Assembly: GCA_016839705.1 (NCBI GenBank)
Contig: JAEOTR010000023.1
Location: 33,144-97,143, forward strand
Direction: 5' to 3'
Source: Promethearchaeota archaeon
Lineage (GTDB): Archaea; Asgardarchaeota; Lokiarchaeia; Sigyniarchaeales; SOKP01
DNA: 64,000 bases
This document shows positions 2,111-8,862 of the stretch, piece after piece (position 1 is the first letter of the stretch; each line of letters begins with the position of its first letter). The position numbers and the translations under genes were made by a program. The notes beneath the pieces were generated by a model. The model was not told the DNA's origin. It saw only the letters and a program-made list of their open reading frames with translations, and did not search any database.

Positions 2111-2554
2111 TTAAGCTCTCTCAAAAGATAAATATTTCTTTTGTCTTAAAAAAATAACATTAATACTTAACTTTTTTGATCTTCGGCGTAATTCTGAATC
2201 ATTTGTAGCAAGAAAGACAGATTGATAATTTTCTTTTAATTCAGTTAACTTTCTAATCATAAAATCATCAGTTGTTTCATTTATAGCTTTTATATCTTGA
2301 ATAAATTCAATCTCAAAACGGTCCTTATTTTTTTCTAAATACGATAAACCAGATTTAAGTAATCTTATGAATCTCGTTACCCTAGGTTCTCTCTTTCTCT
2401 TTGCTTCAAGTTCATTTAGAATTTGTTGGAAAACTATAAACTTTAGTTTCCCATCTAAATTGGCTCGAATCTCATTTAGATAATCGATTTTAAACTGAAA
2501 AGGAAGAAGTATAAAATTAGCATCTAATATAATTAAAACAAGATTGGATCTCAA
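2111..2554 (-). CDS. PIN-domain protein (Fcf1/VapC9-like ribonuclease fold)
   Basis: A 147-residue protein starting LVLIILDANFILLP, typical of archaeal PIN domains related to Fcf1/Utp24. Acidic residues in LDAN, LNELEAK, ETTDDF and TNDSEL are consistent with a metal-dependent nuclease centre. The start is TTG at 2554 and overlaps the stop of the upstream GTPase in a TTGA overlap, so translation is probably coupled. There is no antitoxin-like gene beside it, which argues for a housekeeping (rRNA-processing-type) role rather than toxin-antitoxin, but this is inference. Its sandwiching between two paralogous GTPases is unusual. Confidence 0.75.
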   Translation of the reverse strand: MRSNLVLIILDANFILLPFQFKIDYLNEIRANLDGKLKFIVFQQILNELEAKRKREPRVTRFIRLLKSGLSYLEKNKDRFEIEFIQDIKAINETTDDFMIRKLTELKENYQSVFLATNDSELRRRSKKLSINVIFLRQKKYLSFERA

Positions 2555-3072
2555 TAAGTTTGTCGCTCTAATATTTTTTTTGTTAAAATCTCAAAAGCTT
2601 TCCCTACATTTTCACCCGTTTTAGAAGAGATTTTGAGAAAGTCAATTAAATTATATTCATTAAGAAACATTTTAGCATAATCATCGTCGACTTGAATATC
2701 ATCATCTAAATCCAGTTTCGTCCCTAAAAAGAGAACGGGAAGATTTGGGTCACCCTTTCTTACTATATTGAGCCATTGTTCCAAATTTTCTAATGTGGTC
2801 ATCCTTGTGAGGTCAAACATGAGCAGTGCTCCTTTTGCGCCTAGAACATAGCTTTCAAGTAAAAATCGAAATCTCTCTTGCCCACCGAAGTCCCAGAGCT
2901 GCAGTGTGCATTGTTTCTCCTCAATCAACGTCTCTTTTAAAAAAAATTCCACACCTATCGTCATTTTTGTTTCAGCAGAGAATTTTCCTTCTACGTATCT
3001 ATGGAGAAGTGTTGTTTTCCCTACTCCTCCCTCTCCTGCTGTTAAGATCTTAAGTATGAATTTCTTCGGCAT
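2551..3072 (-). CDS. Ras/Rab-like small GTPase (promoter-proximal gene of operon)
   Basis: A 173-residue small GTPase closely similar along its length to the one at 1553-2074, suggesting tandem duplication around the PIN gene. Motifs: G1 GEGGVGKTT, G3 WDFGGQE, G4 GTKLD, G5 SSKTG. The ATG start is MPKKFILK. It is the first gene of a minus-strand operon. Two copies of a 10-bp palindrome lie 40-80 bases upstream. No lipid-anchor motif is seen. Guanine-nucleotide binding is clear from sequence; partners and process are unknown. Confidence 0.9.
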   Translation of the reverse strand: MPKKFILKILTAGEGGVGKTTLLHRYVEGKFSAETKMTIGVEFFLKETLIEEKQCTLQLWDFGGQERFRFLLESYVLGAKGALLMFDLTRMTTLENLEQWLNIVRKGDPNLPVLFLGTKLDLDDDIQVDDDYAKMFLNEYNLIDFLKISSKTGENVGKAFEILTKKILERQTY

Positions 3073-3709: not shown

Positions 3710-4252
3710 TTAAGAAAATCTTTGTTTATCTTGATGTTCTTTAACAGAGGTTTCTCTCTCGCTGAGCCTTTCAAGTTTAATTAAACCCTCCTTTATAGCT
3801 TTTATCTCCGTTCGAGTATTTACTTTATAATCCTTGAGGTTATCTAGAATTTCTTTTTCAGTAAAACCCTTATTGTATACTTCCTTGAACGCTTGAATAG
3901 TTTCCTGATGGTAAAAAATGTATTGTTTATTTAGAAATACTATCAACCACTTTTTCTTCAACTGGTTCTGTGATAATTCAAACATTTCTTCTCTAACTTT
4001 TTCAAGAGATTTTTTAAGCTTACGAGCAATTAATTCATCCTCGATCTTATAAAATCCCTTCATGAACTTGTGTAATTTATTTTTAAAGAATATTCTAGGA
4101 ATGTAAGATAAGAAGAATAGTATTATAGTAATAACCGCCATCCAAATTGCGGTAACTGGATTAAAAAAAGCTATTATTATAATGGCAATAATAAGAAATG
4201 CAAACCATTTACGTCCAATAGTTTTAAAAAAGACAATATATTTTTTTGGCAT
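3710..4252 (-). CDS. Hypothetical membrane protein with cytoplasmic helical tail
   Basis: A 180-residue protein with an N-terminal hydrophobic block of two predicted membrane helices (about residues 15-50). A long charged, mostly helical region follows, rich in Lys and Glu (for example RKLKKSLEKVREEMFELSQ), and the tail is polar. No domain was recognised. It converges with the cupin gene and is transcribed in the same direction as the downstream GTPase operon but 640 bases away from it. Function unknown. Confidence 0.6.
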   Translation of the reverse strand: MPKKYIVFFKTIGRKWFAFLIIAIIIIAFFNPVTAIWMAVITIILFFLSYIPRIFFKNKLHKFMKGFYKIEDELIARKLKKSLEKVREEMFELSQNQLKKKWLIVFLNKQYIFYHQETIQAFKEVYNKGFTEKEILDNLKDYKVNTRTEIKAIKEGLIKLERLSERETSVKEHQDKQRFS

Positions 4253-4360
4253 AATTTTCTACTTTAGCACTAGTTATTATGATCTATAACATTAATGATC
4301 ACATAAAAAAATTATTTCTAGGTAAATCTTTATATAAATAAAGTAAGTAAGTTTCAAATA

Positions 4361-4530
4361 ACCACATAAACAAGCGTTTCCGGGTTCGGATGGGACCGGG
4401 TATTATCCTAAATCACCATGACCGTGAGCGAACTCACAGTTTGTAGTTTCCCACAGATATCAACCGCAGTACTATCTACAACGCGAGAAAGTTTAACTTC
4501 CGGCGCTTTACTTTATGTTATTTATGTGGT
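4361..4530 (-). ncRNA. Precursor of permuted 5S rRNA with terminal stem and bulge-helix-bulge
   Basis: The 5S sequence is enclosed by a perfect 10-bp stem (ACCACATAAA at 4530-4521, TTTATGTGGT at 4370-4361) and an inner AAGCG/CGCTT stem (4508-4504, 4376-4372). Inside it, CCGG (4503-4500) can pair with CCGG (4383-4380). A 3-nt AAG bulge (4499-4497) follows on one strand and an AAA bulge (4379-4377) on the other. This is the order of a BHB cut by archaeal tRNA-splicing endonuclease. Cutting each bulge between its second and third base releases precisely the 120-nt 5S. The CCGG pairing competes with helix III, so refolding after ligation would be needed. Confidence 0.75.
4378..4497 (-). rRNA. 5S rRNA, circularly permuted gene (predicted mature circular 120-nt RNA)
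   Basis: Read on the minus strand, the usual 3' half comes first (GTTAAAC from 4497, then TAGTACTG and GTGGGAAAC). It is followed by the usual 5' half (CGGTCATGGTG, then ACCCGGTCCCATCCGAACC). The natural ends are joined by an 8-bp helix I, ACTGTGAG/CTCACGGT, closed by a TTCG tetraloop. Helices IV (CTGCGG/CTGTGG) and V (GTTGTAG/CTACAAAC) and the self-complementary CCGG helix III can be drawn. Joining the last base, 4378, to the first, 4497, gives CCCGGAAGTTAAAC, the archaeal 5S consensus, and exactly 120 nt. No normally ordered 5S is present here. Confidence 0.88.
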
Positions 4531-4550
4531 TATAAAACCACGAGATTACC

Positions 4551-4560
4551 ATTTAATAAG
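4551..4560 (-). promoter_or_regulatory. TATA-box candidate for the 5S rRNA gene
   Basis: On the minus strand, CTTATTAAAT is centred about 25 bases before position 4530, the first base of the terminal stem. That is the normal archaeal TATA-to-start distance, so transcription probably begins at or next to the stem. The rest of the 4531-4703 spacer shows no gene. T-rich sequence past 4360 on the minus strand may serve as terminator. Confidence 0.5.
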
Positions 4561-4703: not shown

Positions 4704-6824
4704 TTAATTATCATTAATTCGAGCATATCTCCTTATTTCCTTAAAAATTAGGAATACAGAAAGTCCAGTAATTCCAATAATTAGAATTAAAGACATAGGA
4801 AGAATATAATCCATTATGGGTGTCGGGATTATCAATTTAAATCCTAAATCTTGAAAGATGTTTGAATTATTCGCATAATCTCTTGAAATAATACAATAGG
4901 AATAATCTCCAGGTTTAACTTTATTAAGATTAAATGTCAATAGGTTTTGATTTTCAAGTAACCCATTTGATCTACTGAAATATTCATAACTTTCAAAATT
5001 ATTGTCAGATAACAGTAAATGTACACTCTCTATTCCCGAATAATTATCAAGTATTTCGATTTTAAAATTTATTGTGTCTGAGGTCATTGGGCTTTTAGGA
5101 ATACATTCAATACCTATAAATTCAGGTTTACTTGTATCTGGAAGTGTAGTAAAATTGAAATGAGTTGGTATTAAATTATGACCAGTTACAGTTACATTGT
5201 AAGTTTCATTTGCTAATGCTGGAAGTCGGAATTTAGTGATCCCGTTTTTATCAGCATAGACAGTATTAAATTTACCATCACTACTAGTAAAATAAACTCT
5301 TGCAAATGGTATTGTTTTACTGTGAATATCCATAATAGTAATAGATGCAAGTTGACCTTCATAAATATTCTCGTAAAAAGGATTAGCTGCTTGTTGAGGT
5401 ATATTTGTATAAATATCAACTTCGGGATCACCTAAAAGATTATAGCTTAAAATATTTTTCCGTTCAAAATCGTATCTAGTTGATCCAGTTCCCTGCGTAT
5501 AATAATCACTATTTATATAGGAAACTTTAGAATCATAAAGTGCTTTCCCTTGTTGGAATTTTTCTTCCTGAAAAAATTCCTTCCAAAACATTTTGGCATT
5601 TCCACGATTAAGTTTTTCTAAATTCTCATCATCTTCGAAATACCAAGTTACTCTTAATCCCCCAATTGCCCCGATGGCACCTCCATTAATCCTTTTTATT
5701 AGGGTTTCCCCTATACTATTATCATTAGCATCATAACTAGATGTAGAACACGCATCAATATATACTAAAGAAGGCATATAAGCATTAGAACTTGAAGCTG
5801 CATCTGAACTAGAATAACCAATAGTTGAAGGATCAATATAATAAACCGTTGGGGCACCATGTCCTGCCATAATAACTGTTGAATAACCATTATTAAAGAA
5901 TGCTTTAAGATTTGACCTTGTAAGATTCCCTTCTTCTTTGACTAGATGTGAATAGTTAATGTCATATTGAGCATAGTGTTGAATAATAAAATTAGTTAAA
6001 GCACTTTCATATTCTCCCGAATCTTGACCAGAAACACTATAACTGGAAATACCCCCAGTTAACAACATTCTATTCATCCAATCTCCTATTTGTGGATTTT
6101 TTTCATATTTTAAAGTCTTATTCACCATAATTTCAAGTTCATTTGCATCATTTGCAGGAAATCTACCGACGTATACTTCTGGAGTCCAAGAGATTTCATC
6201 TAAACCATAGAGATTATCTCGGGGAGCTTCACCCCAAATATTATCTTCATCACTATCCCAACTTCCTGATAAATCTGCATAATAAAAATCTGTGGGCTTA
6301 TAATATTCACCTGAAATTGACTCAGTCCTTCCTCCTCCCCACCTCAGAACATCTGGATTATACACCATTCTGATTGGGATTAAATTTTCTTGAGCATCTC
6401 CAGCTAAAAGTACCCACTGAATGTTTTCTTTTTCGTAATAAGATTTTATCATGTTTCTTATTTTTTCTGCATCATCCCTACCCTCATACAGAGAAAAATT
6501 ACTCAAGATAATTGTCTTAACACCTTTTTCATTTTTCCAATCCATTAAAGGTTTTAACGCATCAATAAAATCCGATCTGTTAGGACAAATAATCAACATT
6601 TCAATTTTGGGGTTGTACCACATATCATGTAAAAGTTCATAATCAATATCAGGAACAAAAGATACATCAACTTCAGGATATCCATTAGTAGACATATTCA
6701 CTTTAAAAAAATTTGATGATTTTAAAGCCATCATAGAAGAATTTAAAGTTAACCCTACAATCGACAATAGGATTAAAAGGAAAGCAATAGAGTATTTTGG
6801 CTTCTTTGAGTGAATATGTATCAT
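4704..6824 (-). CDS. Secreted, membrane-anchored C25 (gingipain-like) cysteine peptidase
   Basis: A 706-residue protein. An N-terminal signal/anchor helix spans about residues 10-32. A caspase-like peptidase C25 domain follows, with LIICPNRSDFIDAL and WVLLAGDAQENLIP. The candidate catalytic His lies in MAGHGAPT (about 319) and the Cys in YIDACSTSS (about 359). Further on come Ig-like/beta-sandwich segments (about 490-650), and a C-terminal membrane helix (about 665-695) is followed by a short basic tail. Domain order suggests an extracellular protease held at the surface. The family is best known from bacterial gingipains and is also found in archaea. Substrate unknown. Confidence 0.85.
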   Translation of the reverse strand: MIHIHSKKPKYSIAFLLILLSIVGLTLNSSMMALKSSNFFKVNMSTNGYPEVDVSFVPDIDYELLHDMWYNPKIEMLIICPNRSDFIDALKPLMDWKNEKGVKTIILSNFSLYEGRDDAEKIRNMIKSYYEKENIQWVLLAGDAQENLIPIRMVYNPDVLRWGGGRTESISGEYYKPTDFYYADLSGSWDSDEDNIWGEAPRDNLYGLDEISWTPEVYVGRFPANDANELEIMVNKTLKYEKNPQIGDWMNRMLLTGGISSYSVSGQDSGEYESALTNFIIQHYAQYDINYSHLVKEEGNLTRSNLKAFFNNGYSTVIMAGHGAPTVYYIDPSTIGYSSSDAASSSNAYMPSLVYIDACSTSSYDANDNSIGETLIKRINGGAIGAIGGLRVTWYFEDDENLEKLNRGNAKMFWKEFFQEEKFQQGKALYDSKVSYINSDYYTQGTGSTRYDFERKNILSYNLLGDPEVDIYTNIPQQAANPFYENIYEGQLASITIMDIHSKTIPFARVYFTSSDGKFNTVYADKNGITKFRLPALANETYNVTVTGHNLIPTHFNFTTLPDTSKPEFIGIECIPKSPMTSDTINFKIEILDNYSGIESVHLLLSDNNFESYEYFSRSNGLLENQNLLTFNLNKVKPGDYSYCIISRDYANNSNIFQDLGFKLIIPTPIMDYILPMSLILIIGITGLSVFLIFKEIRRYARINDN

Positions 6825-7275: not shown

Positions 7276-8862
7276 ATGTCATTTGATTTAGAAGATATTG
7301 CAGGAATTGGGAAAACAACCGCAGAAAAAATGAGAGCGGCAGGGATAGATTCAATTGAAAAATTAGTTGGAGTTAAACCTGAAGATTTAGTAAAGTTAAA
7401 AATCAAAGGTGTAGGTAAGGCTAAAGCTCAAAACATAATTTCAGATGCAACAGAAATTCTTGAAGAGCTTAGCAAAAAAGAAAAATCCTCAAAAGTGCTA
7501 ACGGAAAAAATTGATGAGAAACCAAAACCAAAATCTAAACCTGAAACAGCAACAAAATCTAAATCAAAACCAACTTCTAAAGAAAAGCGAACTTCATTAA
7601 AAGAATTAATAAAACAACAAGCAGAATGTAATATTGGTCTTGTTGGGCATGTAGATCACGGAAAAACTACACTTGTTAAATCTTTAACGGGAGATTGGAC
7701 TGATCGACATTCTGAGGAACAAGAACGAGGCATTTCAATAAAATTAGGTTATTCTAATGCTACAATTCTCTACTGTCCTGTTTGTGATGAATATACTACC
7801 GCCCATCTTATAGAAATAAAAAGAGCAAAAGGTCAACCTCGGTTTACATGCCAAAACTGTAAAGGGAATTTAGAATTTAGAAGAAATATATCATTTGTTG
7901 ATGCCCCTGGTCATGAGATTTTAATGGCAACTATGTTAAGTGGTGCGTCTTTAATGGATGGTGCTTGCCTTCTAATCGCTGCAGATGAGAGATGCCCCCA
8001 ACCTCAAACACGAGAACATCTAGCCGCATTAAATATTGCGGGGATTAAAAAAATAATCATCTTACAAAATAAAATTGATGCAGTTTCTCGGGAACAAGCT
8101 TTAGAGAATTTTCAGCAAATTAAAATATTTGTAAAAGGCACTGTTGCAGAAAATGCTCCAATCATACCAGTTTCAGCAGTTTTTGAGGCGAACCTCCATT
8201 TAGTTATAAGAGCTTTTGAAGAAATTATCCCTACTCCTACTTTTAATGAGGAGGAAACCTTTCAATTTTTAATTGCTCGATCATTTGATATCAACAAACC
8301 AGGAAAAAATATTGCAGAATTACAAGGTGGGGTAATAGGCGGTTCAGTATTAAAGGGTAATATTGAAATTGGGTCTCAAATTGAAATAAAACCAGGTATA
8401 CGCGTTAAGGAGGAGTATATTCCTATTAAATCAAAAGTTGTAAGTATTAGTCAAGGAGATCAAAATTTAGAAATTGCAAAACCAGGTGGACTAATTGGTT
8501 TAGGTACGAACTTAGATCCAGCATTGACTAAAGGCGATCATCTAATTGGACACCTAGTTGGAAAACCAGGAACACTTCCCGAAATTCTTAAAGAAGTTGA
8601 ATTAAAAGTCAATCTTTTAGACAGAGTAATTGGTTCAGAAGTACAGATGAAGGTCCAACCACTAAAACATGGTGAAAAATTGTTATTAGTTGTTGGAACT
8701 GAGAAAACGGGTGGAACTGTTACCAAAATATTAAAGAATAGTACAATAATAAATCTCACACCGCCAATCTGCCCTCCTGAAGATTTTATATATGCAATTT
8801 CTCGTATCATAAATAGACGTTATCGTTTAATAGGATATGGTGAAGAAGTAAACCACAAATAG
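7276..8862 (+). CDS. Translation initiation factor aIF2 gamma with N-terminal helix-hairpin-helix fusion
   Basis: Residues from about 118 onward are a full-length aIF2 gamma: G1 GHVDHGKT, switch region EEQERGIS, zinc knuckle CPVC...CQNC, G3 DAPGHE, G4 NKID, and the two beta-barrel domains. It binds GTP and initiator tRNA and partners with aIF2 alpha and beta. Unusually, residues 1-62 form a helix-hairpin-helix pair (DIAGIGKTTAEKMRAAGI and KIKGVGKAKAQNI). A Lys/Ser/Pro-rich linker (about 70-112) joins it to the GTPase. Ordinary aIF2 gamma is about 410 residues; this is 528. The reading frame is continuous and the ATG at 7276 is the only start that includes the HhH. Confidence 0.93.
   Translation: MSFDLEDIAGIGKTTAEKMRAAGIDSIEKLVGVKPEDLVKLKIKGVGKAKAQNIISDATEILEELSKKEKSSKVLTEKIDEKPKPKSKPETATKSKSKPTSKEKRTSLKELIKQQAECNIGLVGHVDHGKTTLVKSLTGDWTDRHSEEQERGISIKLGYSNATILYCPVCDEYTTAHLIEIKRAKGQPRFTCQNCKGNLEFRRNISFVDAPGHEILMATMLSGASLMDGACLLIAADERCPQPQTREHLAALNIAGIKKIIILQNKIDAVSREQALENFQQIKIFVKGTVAENAPIIPVSAVFEANLHLVIRAFEEIIPTPTFNEEETFQFLIARSFDINKPGKNIAELQGGVIGGSVLKGNIEIGSQIEIKPGIRVKEEYIPIKSKVVSISQGDQNLEIAKPGGLIGLGTNLDPALTKGDHLIGHLVGKPGTLPEILKEVELKVNLLDRVIGSEVQMKVQPLKHGEKLLLVVGTEKTGGTVTKILKNSTIINLTPPICPPEDFIYAISRIINRRYRLIGYGEEVNHK

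Follow-up and report, generated by a model that had tools for sequence, protein, structure and literature searches.

The minus strand of the window, the 64,000-nt stretch of contig JAEOTR010000023.1 of a Promethearchaeota archaeon that was analysed here, carries a circularly permuted 5S rRNA gene. The gene is a unit of 120 nt (4378-4497) in which the 3' half of the molecule lies ahead of the 5' half, and both this order and its geometry are seen in the sequence. It is the sole 5S rRNA gene detected in the host genome (G000), within a draft that is 93% complete. A bulge-helix-bulge (BHB) motif is formed at the two new ends, and the conserved permuted gene with this motif is part of a phylum-wide pattern. 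Very probably, the transcript of this one detected gene is cut by EndA at the BHB and ligated, likely by RtcB, to give a circular RNA of canonical 5S sequence.

The permuted 5S rRNA gene

The unit and its flanking stem consist of the following parts.

4378-4497, minus strand: permuted 5S rRNA unit, 120 nt (from its letters, low-stringency Rfam matches, a rotation test and covariation)
4497-4433, minus strand: natural 3' half, which leads the unit and is followed by the joining loop
4429-4432, minus strand: TTCG loop connecting the natural 3' and 5' ends (from the sequence and a loop survey of 79 units)
4428-4378, minus strand: natural 5' half, after the joining loop
4422-4439, minus strand: helix I hairpin CTGTGAG-TTCG-CTCACGG, all 7 positions of which are paired in 16 of 16 units of the family
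4521-4533, minus strand: left arm of the distal precursor stem, ATAACCACATAAA (from the sequence; paired in the precursor fold)
4358-4370, minus strand: right arm of the distal precursor stem, TTTATGTGGTTAT (from the sequence and the precursor fold)

Read along the minus strand from 4533 to 4358, the locus begins with the stem arm ATAACCACATAAA, a spacer, AAAGCG, CCGG and AA, followed by the 3' half (GTTAAAC...). The 3' strand of helix I (CTGTGAG), the TTCG and the 5' strand of helix I (CTCACGG) come next, then the 5' half (TCATGG...), and the locus ends with ...CCCGGAA, ACGCTTG and the stem arm TTTATGTGGTTAT. An earlier note on this DNA had given a range of 4361-4530, which comprises the unit and most of the flanking precursor stem. 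Its description of a TTCG-capped helix I, ends within loop B, five helices and a length of 120 nt is correct in each respect.

At the Rfam gathering score there are zero matches in the window. With E ≤ 10, the 5S model RF00001 matches in two sub-threshold pieces, one at 4431-4531 (minus strand, 23.1 bits, mostly the 3' half) and one at 4377-4402 (minus strand, 22.1 bits, model positions 26-52), and these lie in swapped order on the minus strand. RF00001 is the only model of the 5S clan in the low-stringency listing of the window, which leaves out overlapping lower-scoring matches of the same clan; the permuted mitochondrial 5S presumably has an Rfam family of its own. In the whole host genome (3.36 Mb, 93% complete) no further RF00001 match was found at E ≤ 10, both window pieces being below the cut-off. 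The search proposed in the earlier note thus returned, in this 93% complete draft, two swapped half-matches and none to a linear gene elsewhere. A standard linear copy in the same genome, which that note had named as evidence to the contrary, was not found with RF00001 at E ≤ 10.

The swapped order of the halves, as first read by eye, is borne out by these two pieces and by a rotation test, in which the 120-nt unit was treated as a circle and its mean alignment score was recorded against ten of the phylum's linear 5S genes. In gene order the window unit scores -11.4, and its best rotation, which starts with GCTCACGGTCATGG at the natural 5' end, scores 21.3; the best start more than 6 nt away from this optimum scores 16.2. 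Twenty shuffled circles reached at most -0.1 at the best rotation tried. The unit of G173 rises from -11.9 to 31.4 (shuffles, at most 7.7).

The mature fold is supported by covariation at many positions. A1, an alignment of 16 units from the family, has 92.3% of its 573 pair cells formed, and both partners change in 22 of its 36 pairs; none of 500 shuffles reached either value. The covariation score of this fold is 0.551, versus 0.193 for shuffled and at most 0.105 for slid alignments. For a phylum set of 40 units the corresponding figures are 94.9% of 1405 cells, 34 of 36 pairs and a score of 0.914, versus 0.212 shuffled and at most 0.164 slid, in an alignment that was fitted to its model and with shuffling that leaves relatedness in. 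Since the rotation test and the pairing and covariation all exceed their shuffles, the permuted 5S is far beyond chance. By its pair cells and its rotation the unit has the five-helix 5S fold with its conserved loops.

Bulge-helix-bulge motif at the new ends

The canonical archaeal BHB has a helix, a central helix of 4 bp and a 3-nt bulge on each strand, and is cut after the second base of the bulge. The elements below were recognised at the new ends of the window unit (here and in what follows, carets mark predicted cuts and slashes within a sequence mark predicted joins).

4504-4509, minus strand: outer helix, left strand, AAAGCG (each of the six outer pairs has both-side changes within the 16 units)
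4500-4503, minus strand: CCGG copy in the leader, which forms the left strand of the central BHB helix and pairs with 4380-4383
4497-4499, minus strand: left bulge AA^G, predicted cut 4498/4497 by the canonical BHB rule
4380-4383, minus strand: right CCGG, which serves in the precursor for the central BHB helix and in the mature RNA as the 3' strand of helix III
4377-4379, minus strand: right bulge AA^A, predicted cut 4378/4377; a right gap of 3 nt is preferred across families
4371-4376, minus strand: outer helix, right strand, CGCTTG (covariation among 16 units)

The CCGG of the leader pairs with the CCGG of helix III and, past the trailer bulge AAA, CGCTT pairs with AAGCG of the leader, so that a 4-bp central helix, a 3-nt bulge and an outer helix are formed. 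With the canonical polarity, cuts would fall at AA^G and AA^A and the ligated product would therefore read CCCGGAA/GUUAAAC. Ligation at the predicted cuts restores the canonical 5S sequence in the window; for the G173 type the predicted junction is CACGGA/AGUUAAGC. The window junction also agrees with the definition of a BHB in PMC4731332, which asks for a central helix of 4 bp and one or more 3-nt bulges. The earlier note mentions neither this motif nor an origin from a loop-B intron nor the spread of the permuted order over most families of the phylum.

For the outer and central pairs of A1 the covariation score is 0.546; shuffled alignments give 0.197 and slid ones no more than 0.127. On four of five measures no shuffle out of 500 comes up to the alignment; on the fifth, both-side changes, seen in 7 of 10 pairs, 33 of 500 do. 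At the second position of the central helix, 9 of the 16 family units have a CG pair and the other 7 a UA pair. More widely, the leader copy covaries with its partner, the combinations being CCGG with CCGG, CUGG with CCAG, CUGG with UCAG, CGUG with CACG, CGAG with CUCG and CGGG with CCCG.

The spacing of the motif was examined by holding the left copy fixed beside loop B and allowing the right side to float at gaps of 0 to 7 nt. The sample of 79 distinct permuted units (34 type A family units and 45 from 20 other families) was drawn from a subset of loci rather than from every match, and excludes identical junctions within the family, units of type B, a repeat copy in G094 and units truncated at contig ends. 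With 5 bp or more required of the outer helix beside the 4-bp centre, fits numbered 0, 0, 2, 45, 2, 0, 3 and 1 of the 79 at the eight successive gaps; with 3 bp or more the counts are 2, 4, 6, 57, 7, 8, 10 and 8. Controls in which the right side was taken from another family gave ~1 and ~6-8, respectively. Among the 45 strict fits, that of L157 seems spurious on visual inspection, and 8 further units (from f1, f15, f16, f21 and f23) fit only with one central mismatch. A canonical BHB could not be fitted to L143 (f2), L146 and L147 (f4), L149 (f6), L154 (f11) and most f12 units, and the f1 units L031, L040, L044 and L070 failed the automatic test. Among further loci, L216 (f4), L214 (f7) and L213 (f12) fit the motif, and no fit was found for L215 (f7) and L221 (f12). 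In type A motifs a clear inner helix is absent.

A few loci differ from the usual arrangement. L173 (G118:C510) consists of two tandem permuted copies with differing outer helices, each of which is self-complementary; one copy has a central mismatch. The 3.33-Mb single-contig genome G072 has two permuted copies (G072:C1, near 2471130 and 2829751), the first of which (L213) fits a plain BHB, while the second (L194) seemingly has a hairpin between the outer and central helices. In L208 (G148:C63; f2) the helix III hairpin seemingly lies wholly on the left, so that loop B would be broken in its 5' strand.

Since a tandem duplication is expected to leave CCGGAA in two copies, the leader CCGGAA could be such a leftover, with the outer helix an ordinary processing stem and the BHB coincidental. 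We consider this very improbable, because the leader copy and its partner change together in the six combinations given above, and because the tandem copies of G118 differ in their outer helices yet each remains self-complementary, one of them with a central mismatch.

The predicted fold of the precursor (minimum free energy -57.1, z -2.85) draws the outer stem and helix I; the BHB is not drawn in this minimum-energy fold. Such a stem joining the ends is all that would be needed if other nucleases trimmed the precursor stem and the permuted 5S then functioned unligated, as a linear molecule with a nick in loop B (or C). This seems improbable to us, since it leaves unexplained the 4-bp central helix with its exact 3-nt gap, the CG/UA covariation of the central pair and the canonical joins at both junction types. 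A junction that is cut and ligated at the BHB is the reading preferred here.

Distribution across the phylum

Comparison with 5S loci of related Asgard genomes, as the earlier note had suggested, shows the permuted order in 139 of 227 genomes of the phylum. The 22 families concerned are f1 (57/65), f2 (1/1), f4 (3/5), f5 (1/1), f6 (1/1), f7 (2/2), f8 (1/1), f9 (1/1), f10 (2/3), f11 (1/1), f12 (20/23), f13 (3/3), f14 (8/8), f15 (11/12), f16 (2/2), f17 (9/9), f19 (4/4), f20 (2/4), f21 (1/1), f23 (5/6), f24 (2/2) and f25 (2/2). The letters of one to several units were inspected in each of the 22 families, rather than those of every match.

These counts were assembled from several searches. RF00001 matches 37 of 65 family genomes at E ≤ 1, with 2 of 65 over the cut-off and most of the others weak or half matches. 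Searching named genomes with a DNA pattern for the swapped order gave 52 stretches, of which 44 lie in Lokiarchaeota or Lokiarchaeia records; the other 8 are in bacteria and were set aside as chance matches. Identical units in these named records mark the window's family as likely Lokiarchaeal. Pooled with the RF00001 family loci, the pattern stretches represent 50 distinct units. R1, a covariance model built from 16 units, matches 127 of 227 genomes at E ≤ 0.01. A second model of 40 units (R2) matches 161 of 227 at E ≤ 0.001, including the genomes from which it was partly built, which match by construction. Of these R2 matches 24 are weak (best E above 1e-9), and 23 of the weak ones are in families with linear genes. 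The total of 139 comprises 137 strong R2 genomes, G027, where a piece lies at the end of a contig, and G148, matched by R1 alone.

Linear 5S genes over the Rfam cut-off are present in 64 of the 227 genomes, 59 of them in five families: f3 (6/8), f18 (7/8), f26 (2/4), f27 (1/1) and f28 (43/47). The remaining five are G018, G041, G105, G094 and G077. By these searches neither form was found in 29 of 227 genomes, among them the single genomes of f22 and f29. In G094 the linear match overlaps the permuted unit at the start of a contig. Seven single-contig genomes have a permuted gene, namely G028, G029, G113, G114, G115, G173 and G072, with G113 and G114 70-71% complete.

The permuted order could in principle result from misassembly or mark a pseudogene, with the true linear 5S elsewhere. 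The draft state of G000 (93% complete) would allow for this, and three relatives with a permuted gene (G018, G041 and G105) also hold a linear one. In each of these three, however, the linear gene adjoins a bacterial 23S rRNA. The permuted gene occurs in the 44 named Lokiarchaeal records and in the seven single-contig genomes, and its 5S pairs covary. An assembly rearrangement, which the earlier note had raised as grounds for doubt, is likewise contradicted by the same order in many other assemblies. Given the genome search, the named records, the single-contig genomes and the bacterial 23S neighbours, artefact, contamination and pseudogene were rejected, and their probability is negligible.

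Tandem arrays of linear genes, which might mimic a permutation, were also considered and rejected: the array of G151 is linear, and most genomes with a strong R2 match list a single one. That array (L145, G151:C1:1399500-1401100; f3) consists of three tandem linear 5S genes with a spacing of ~374 bp, and its single-contig genome belongs to the same taxonomic order as the host. On a contaminating contig of G018, the bacterial 23S gene contains a group I intron match (L003, 2054-2368, minus strand). A general permutation of small RNAs was rejected as well, as the Archaea_SRP matches (E ≤ 0.1, none over the cut-off) in 46 of 65 family genomes run in model order. In the whole genome of G000 no Archaea_SRP match was found at E ≤ 1.

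Other junctions and insertions in relatives

In six family units, designated type B, the break lies in loop C, as in GCG-CUGG-AA^C with CCGG-UC^A-CGC. In all six the central helix has 4 bp, the right bulge 3 nt and the outer helix 3-4 bp. Their predicted joins give ACCCGGUC/CCAUCCGAAC, which is exactly the loop C of the window in five of six, L006 being a variant.

Insertions were also observed within permuted units. Seventeen units have ~30 extra bases in loop C, between UCCG (or UCUG)-AA^N and CGGG-A[AU]^C. Eight of the 17 pass a strict filter for an inner helix of at least 4 bp; in the other nine the same central letters and bulges can be made out by eye, next to an inner helix that is shorter or interrupted. 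All 17, as judged by eye, would join to CAUC[CU]GAA/CCC[GA]G. The helix IV insertions of L008/L191 and of L023 lie in different BHBs, with joins that match the sequence of uninterrupted relatives, and L216 has a helix III insertion in a BHB with an interrupted inner helix. For the helix I insertions of L022 and L025 a BHB was sought and none was found. With joins close or identical to uninterrupted relatives, the insertions are candidate BHB introns that are predicted to be spliced.

A linear archaeal 5S gene with a candidate BHB intron at the same loop-B site is present at 8277-8414 on the minus strand of G077:C117 (L206/L232). The intron reads CACG-GA^A-CAGUCU...AGACUG-CGUG-AA^A. The contig encodes apparent archaeal RNA polymerase subunits, as judged by eye, and may not belong to its bin. 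We regard this gene as a candidate intermediate. A pattern for such intermediates, CACGGAA-N8-38-CGTGAAAG, matches in 16 of 227 genomes; G077:C117 alone was taken as 5S and the others as chance, a reversed control also matching many genomes. A linear f28 gene with an insertion after loop B (L207, G211:C15:39893-40044) has no convincing BHB.

Genomic context

The permuted unit sits between open reading frames at 3710-4252 and 4704-6824. A small protein with a TIGRKW-like motif (regular expression) is encoded downstream in 34 of the 49 family units with enough sequence. Upstream of the leader lies a candidate promoter:

4553-4560, minus strand: TATA-like element CTTATTAA, a candidate with weak statistical support

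Of the 79 units, 50 have a TATA-like element upstream, compared with a mean of 36.5 and a maximum of 49 in shuffles. The host genome has one match each for EndA (97.8 bits), RtcB (564 bits) and uL18, the protein that binds 5S (69 bits). Elsewhere in the window, two open reading frames on the minus strand (1553-2089 and 2551-3072) resemble small Ras-type GTPases by eye.

Predicted maturation and origin

We infer from the sequences that the gene is transcribed, that EndA cuts and RtcB ligates its RNA, and that the product keeps the TTCG cap and is circular. In the proposed pathway the leader CCGG would mimic the 5' strand of helix III and hold its right strand until cutting. EndA would cut the permuted transcript at the BHB of the two new ends, after which helix III would be free to form. 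RtcB would then ligate the cut ends into a circular 5S, as for permuted SRP RNA. With the TTCG cap in place, the mature 5S would remain circular.

A hairpin of at least 6 bp connects the natural ends in 78 of the 79 units by a simple search. The joining loop is 4 nt long in 58 of 79 and is TTCG in 40 of 79, the search misplacing a few long loops. After circularisation by EndA and RtcB, a nuclease might still remove the TTCG cap and leave a linear mature 5S with ordinary ends. The ends of ordinary archaeal 5S are trimmed by tRNase Z (PMC7714728) and by FAU-1 (PMC7758197), and in a few units the joining loop is long or extended. The compactness of the cap in most units speaks against such re-opening, there being in our judgement no cutting signal in it, and we hold this course to be possible though unlikely. 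Retention of the cap is the outcome that we favour.

The permuted gene likely originated from an intron-bearing linear 5S that was duplicated or circularised, so that the ends of the intron would have become leader and trailer. A cut within the hairpin of a loop-B intron, together with closure of the natural ends, would give the permuted gene. This is the origin that we prefer, on the strength of the single linear example, G077:C117.

Comparison with known systems

The natural ends of permuted tRNAs are re-opened by RNase P and tRNase Z, unlike the natural ends of the 5S, which are connected by a short hairpin loop. To our knowledge, natural permuted 5S has been known from organelles only, a permuted mitochondrial 5S rRNA having reportedly been described by Valach et al. 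in 2014. We know of no BHB mechanism for it. It is likewise a circularly permuted 5S gene, the likeness drawn here being that of the permutation; unlike the Lokiarchaeal unit, it is organellar. Permuted 5S is also mentioned in PMC10085705. Permuted tRNA genes (PMC3978253) share with the present gene the swapped halves, a BHB between leader and trailer and, as predicted here for 5S, a circular intermediate.

The closest parallel is the permuted SRP RNA of Thermoproteus, a precedent already named in the earlier note, for which maturation through a BHB rests on experiment (PMC4731332). There too a permuted non-coding RNA gene has a leader and trailer that form a BHB, and endonuclease cutting and ligation restore a functional loop in a circular product, as is predicted for the 5S. 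The 5S differs in being an rRNA, known from genes alone, in 22 families with varied junctions and candidate introns, whereas two species are named for the SRP RNA (PMC4731332). Circular pre-rRNAs of archaeal 16S and 23S (PMC12918454, PMC7714728) arise by EndA cutting at a BHB and by ligation of rRNA, the steps predicted here, but from collinear genes. In PMC12918454 this circular processing is given for 16S and 23S 'but not 5S rRNAs'. Circular 5S species with variable ends from other archaea are read in PMC12558985 as possible degradation.

In an engineered E. coli 5S placed within 23S rRNA, the native ends are joined by a tetraloop in the same way and the molecule, opened in loop C or D, is functional in ribosomes (PMC7283268). 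Unlike the Asgard gene it is artificial and fused to 23S, and growth is slower (PMC7283268). Archaeal 5S expansion segments are treated in PMC7812874, from whose main text 'permut' is absent. For two other Asgard MAGs 5S genes are reported (PMC9723677), and for closed Heimdallarchaeum genomes 5S could not be predicted (PMC8813620). The earlier note knew of no established description in this archaeal group; in agreement with this, no prior description of a natural permuted 5S restored through a BHB was found in the open-licence PMC literature, preprints being outside its scope.

Implications

5S rRNA is among the most conserved RNAs, and the Asgard phylum comprises the archaea nearest to eukaryotes. 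The findings extend BHB-restored permuted genes, so far of tRNA and SRP RNA, to ribosomal RNA, with circularisation as the best inference from the genes. Permuted genes escape the Rfam 5S cut-off, and the permuted order offers a reason for the unpredicted 5S of the closed Heimdallarchaeum genomes (PMC8813620). On balance, we lean modestly towards a broader hypothesis, in which the covalently circular 5S of most Asgard ribosomes would be a product of the tRNA-splicing machinery, its gene being permuted and at times also split by introns, and the permutation having arisen from BHB introns in 5S; this would explain the 5S that 'could not be predicted' in Asgard genomes.

Permuted 5S across most families of the phylum would make EndA and RtcB necessary for the second RNA of the large subunit as well. 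As families vary in linear or permuted form and in the position of the junction, the gene provides a rare genomic character for Asgard phylogeny, and the distribution of the two forms bears on which lineage has the linear 5S of eukaryotes. A circular 5S in a natural ribosome becomes directly testable.
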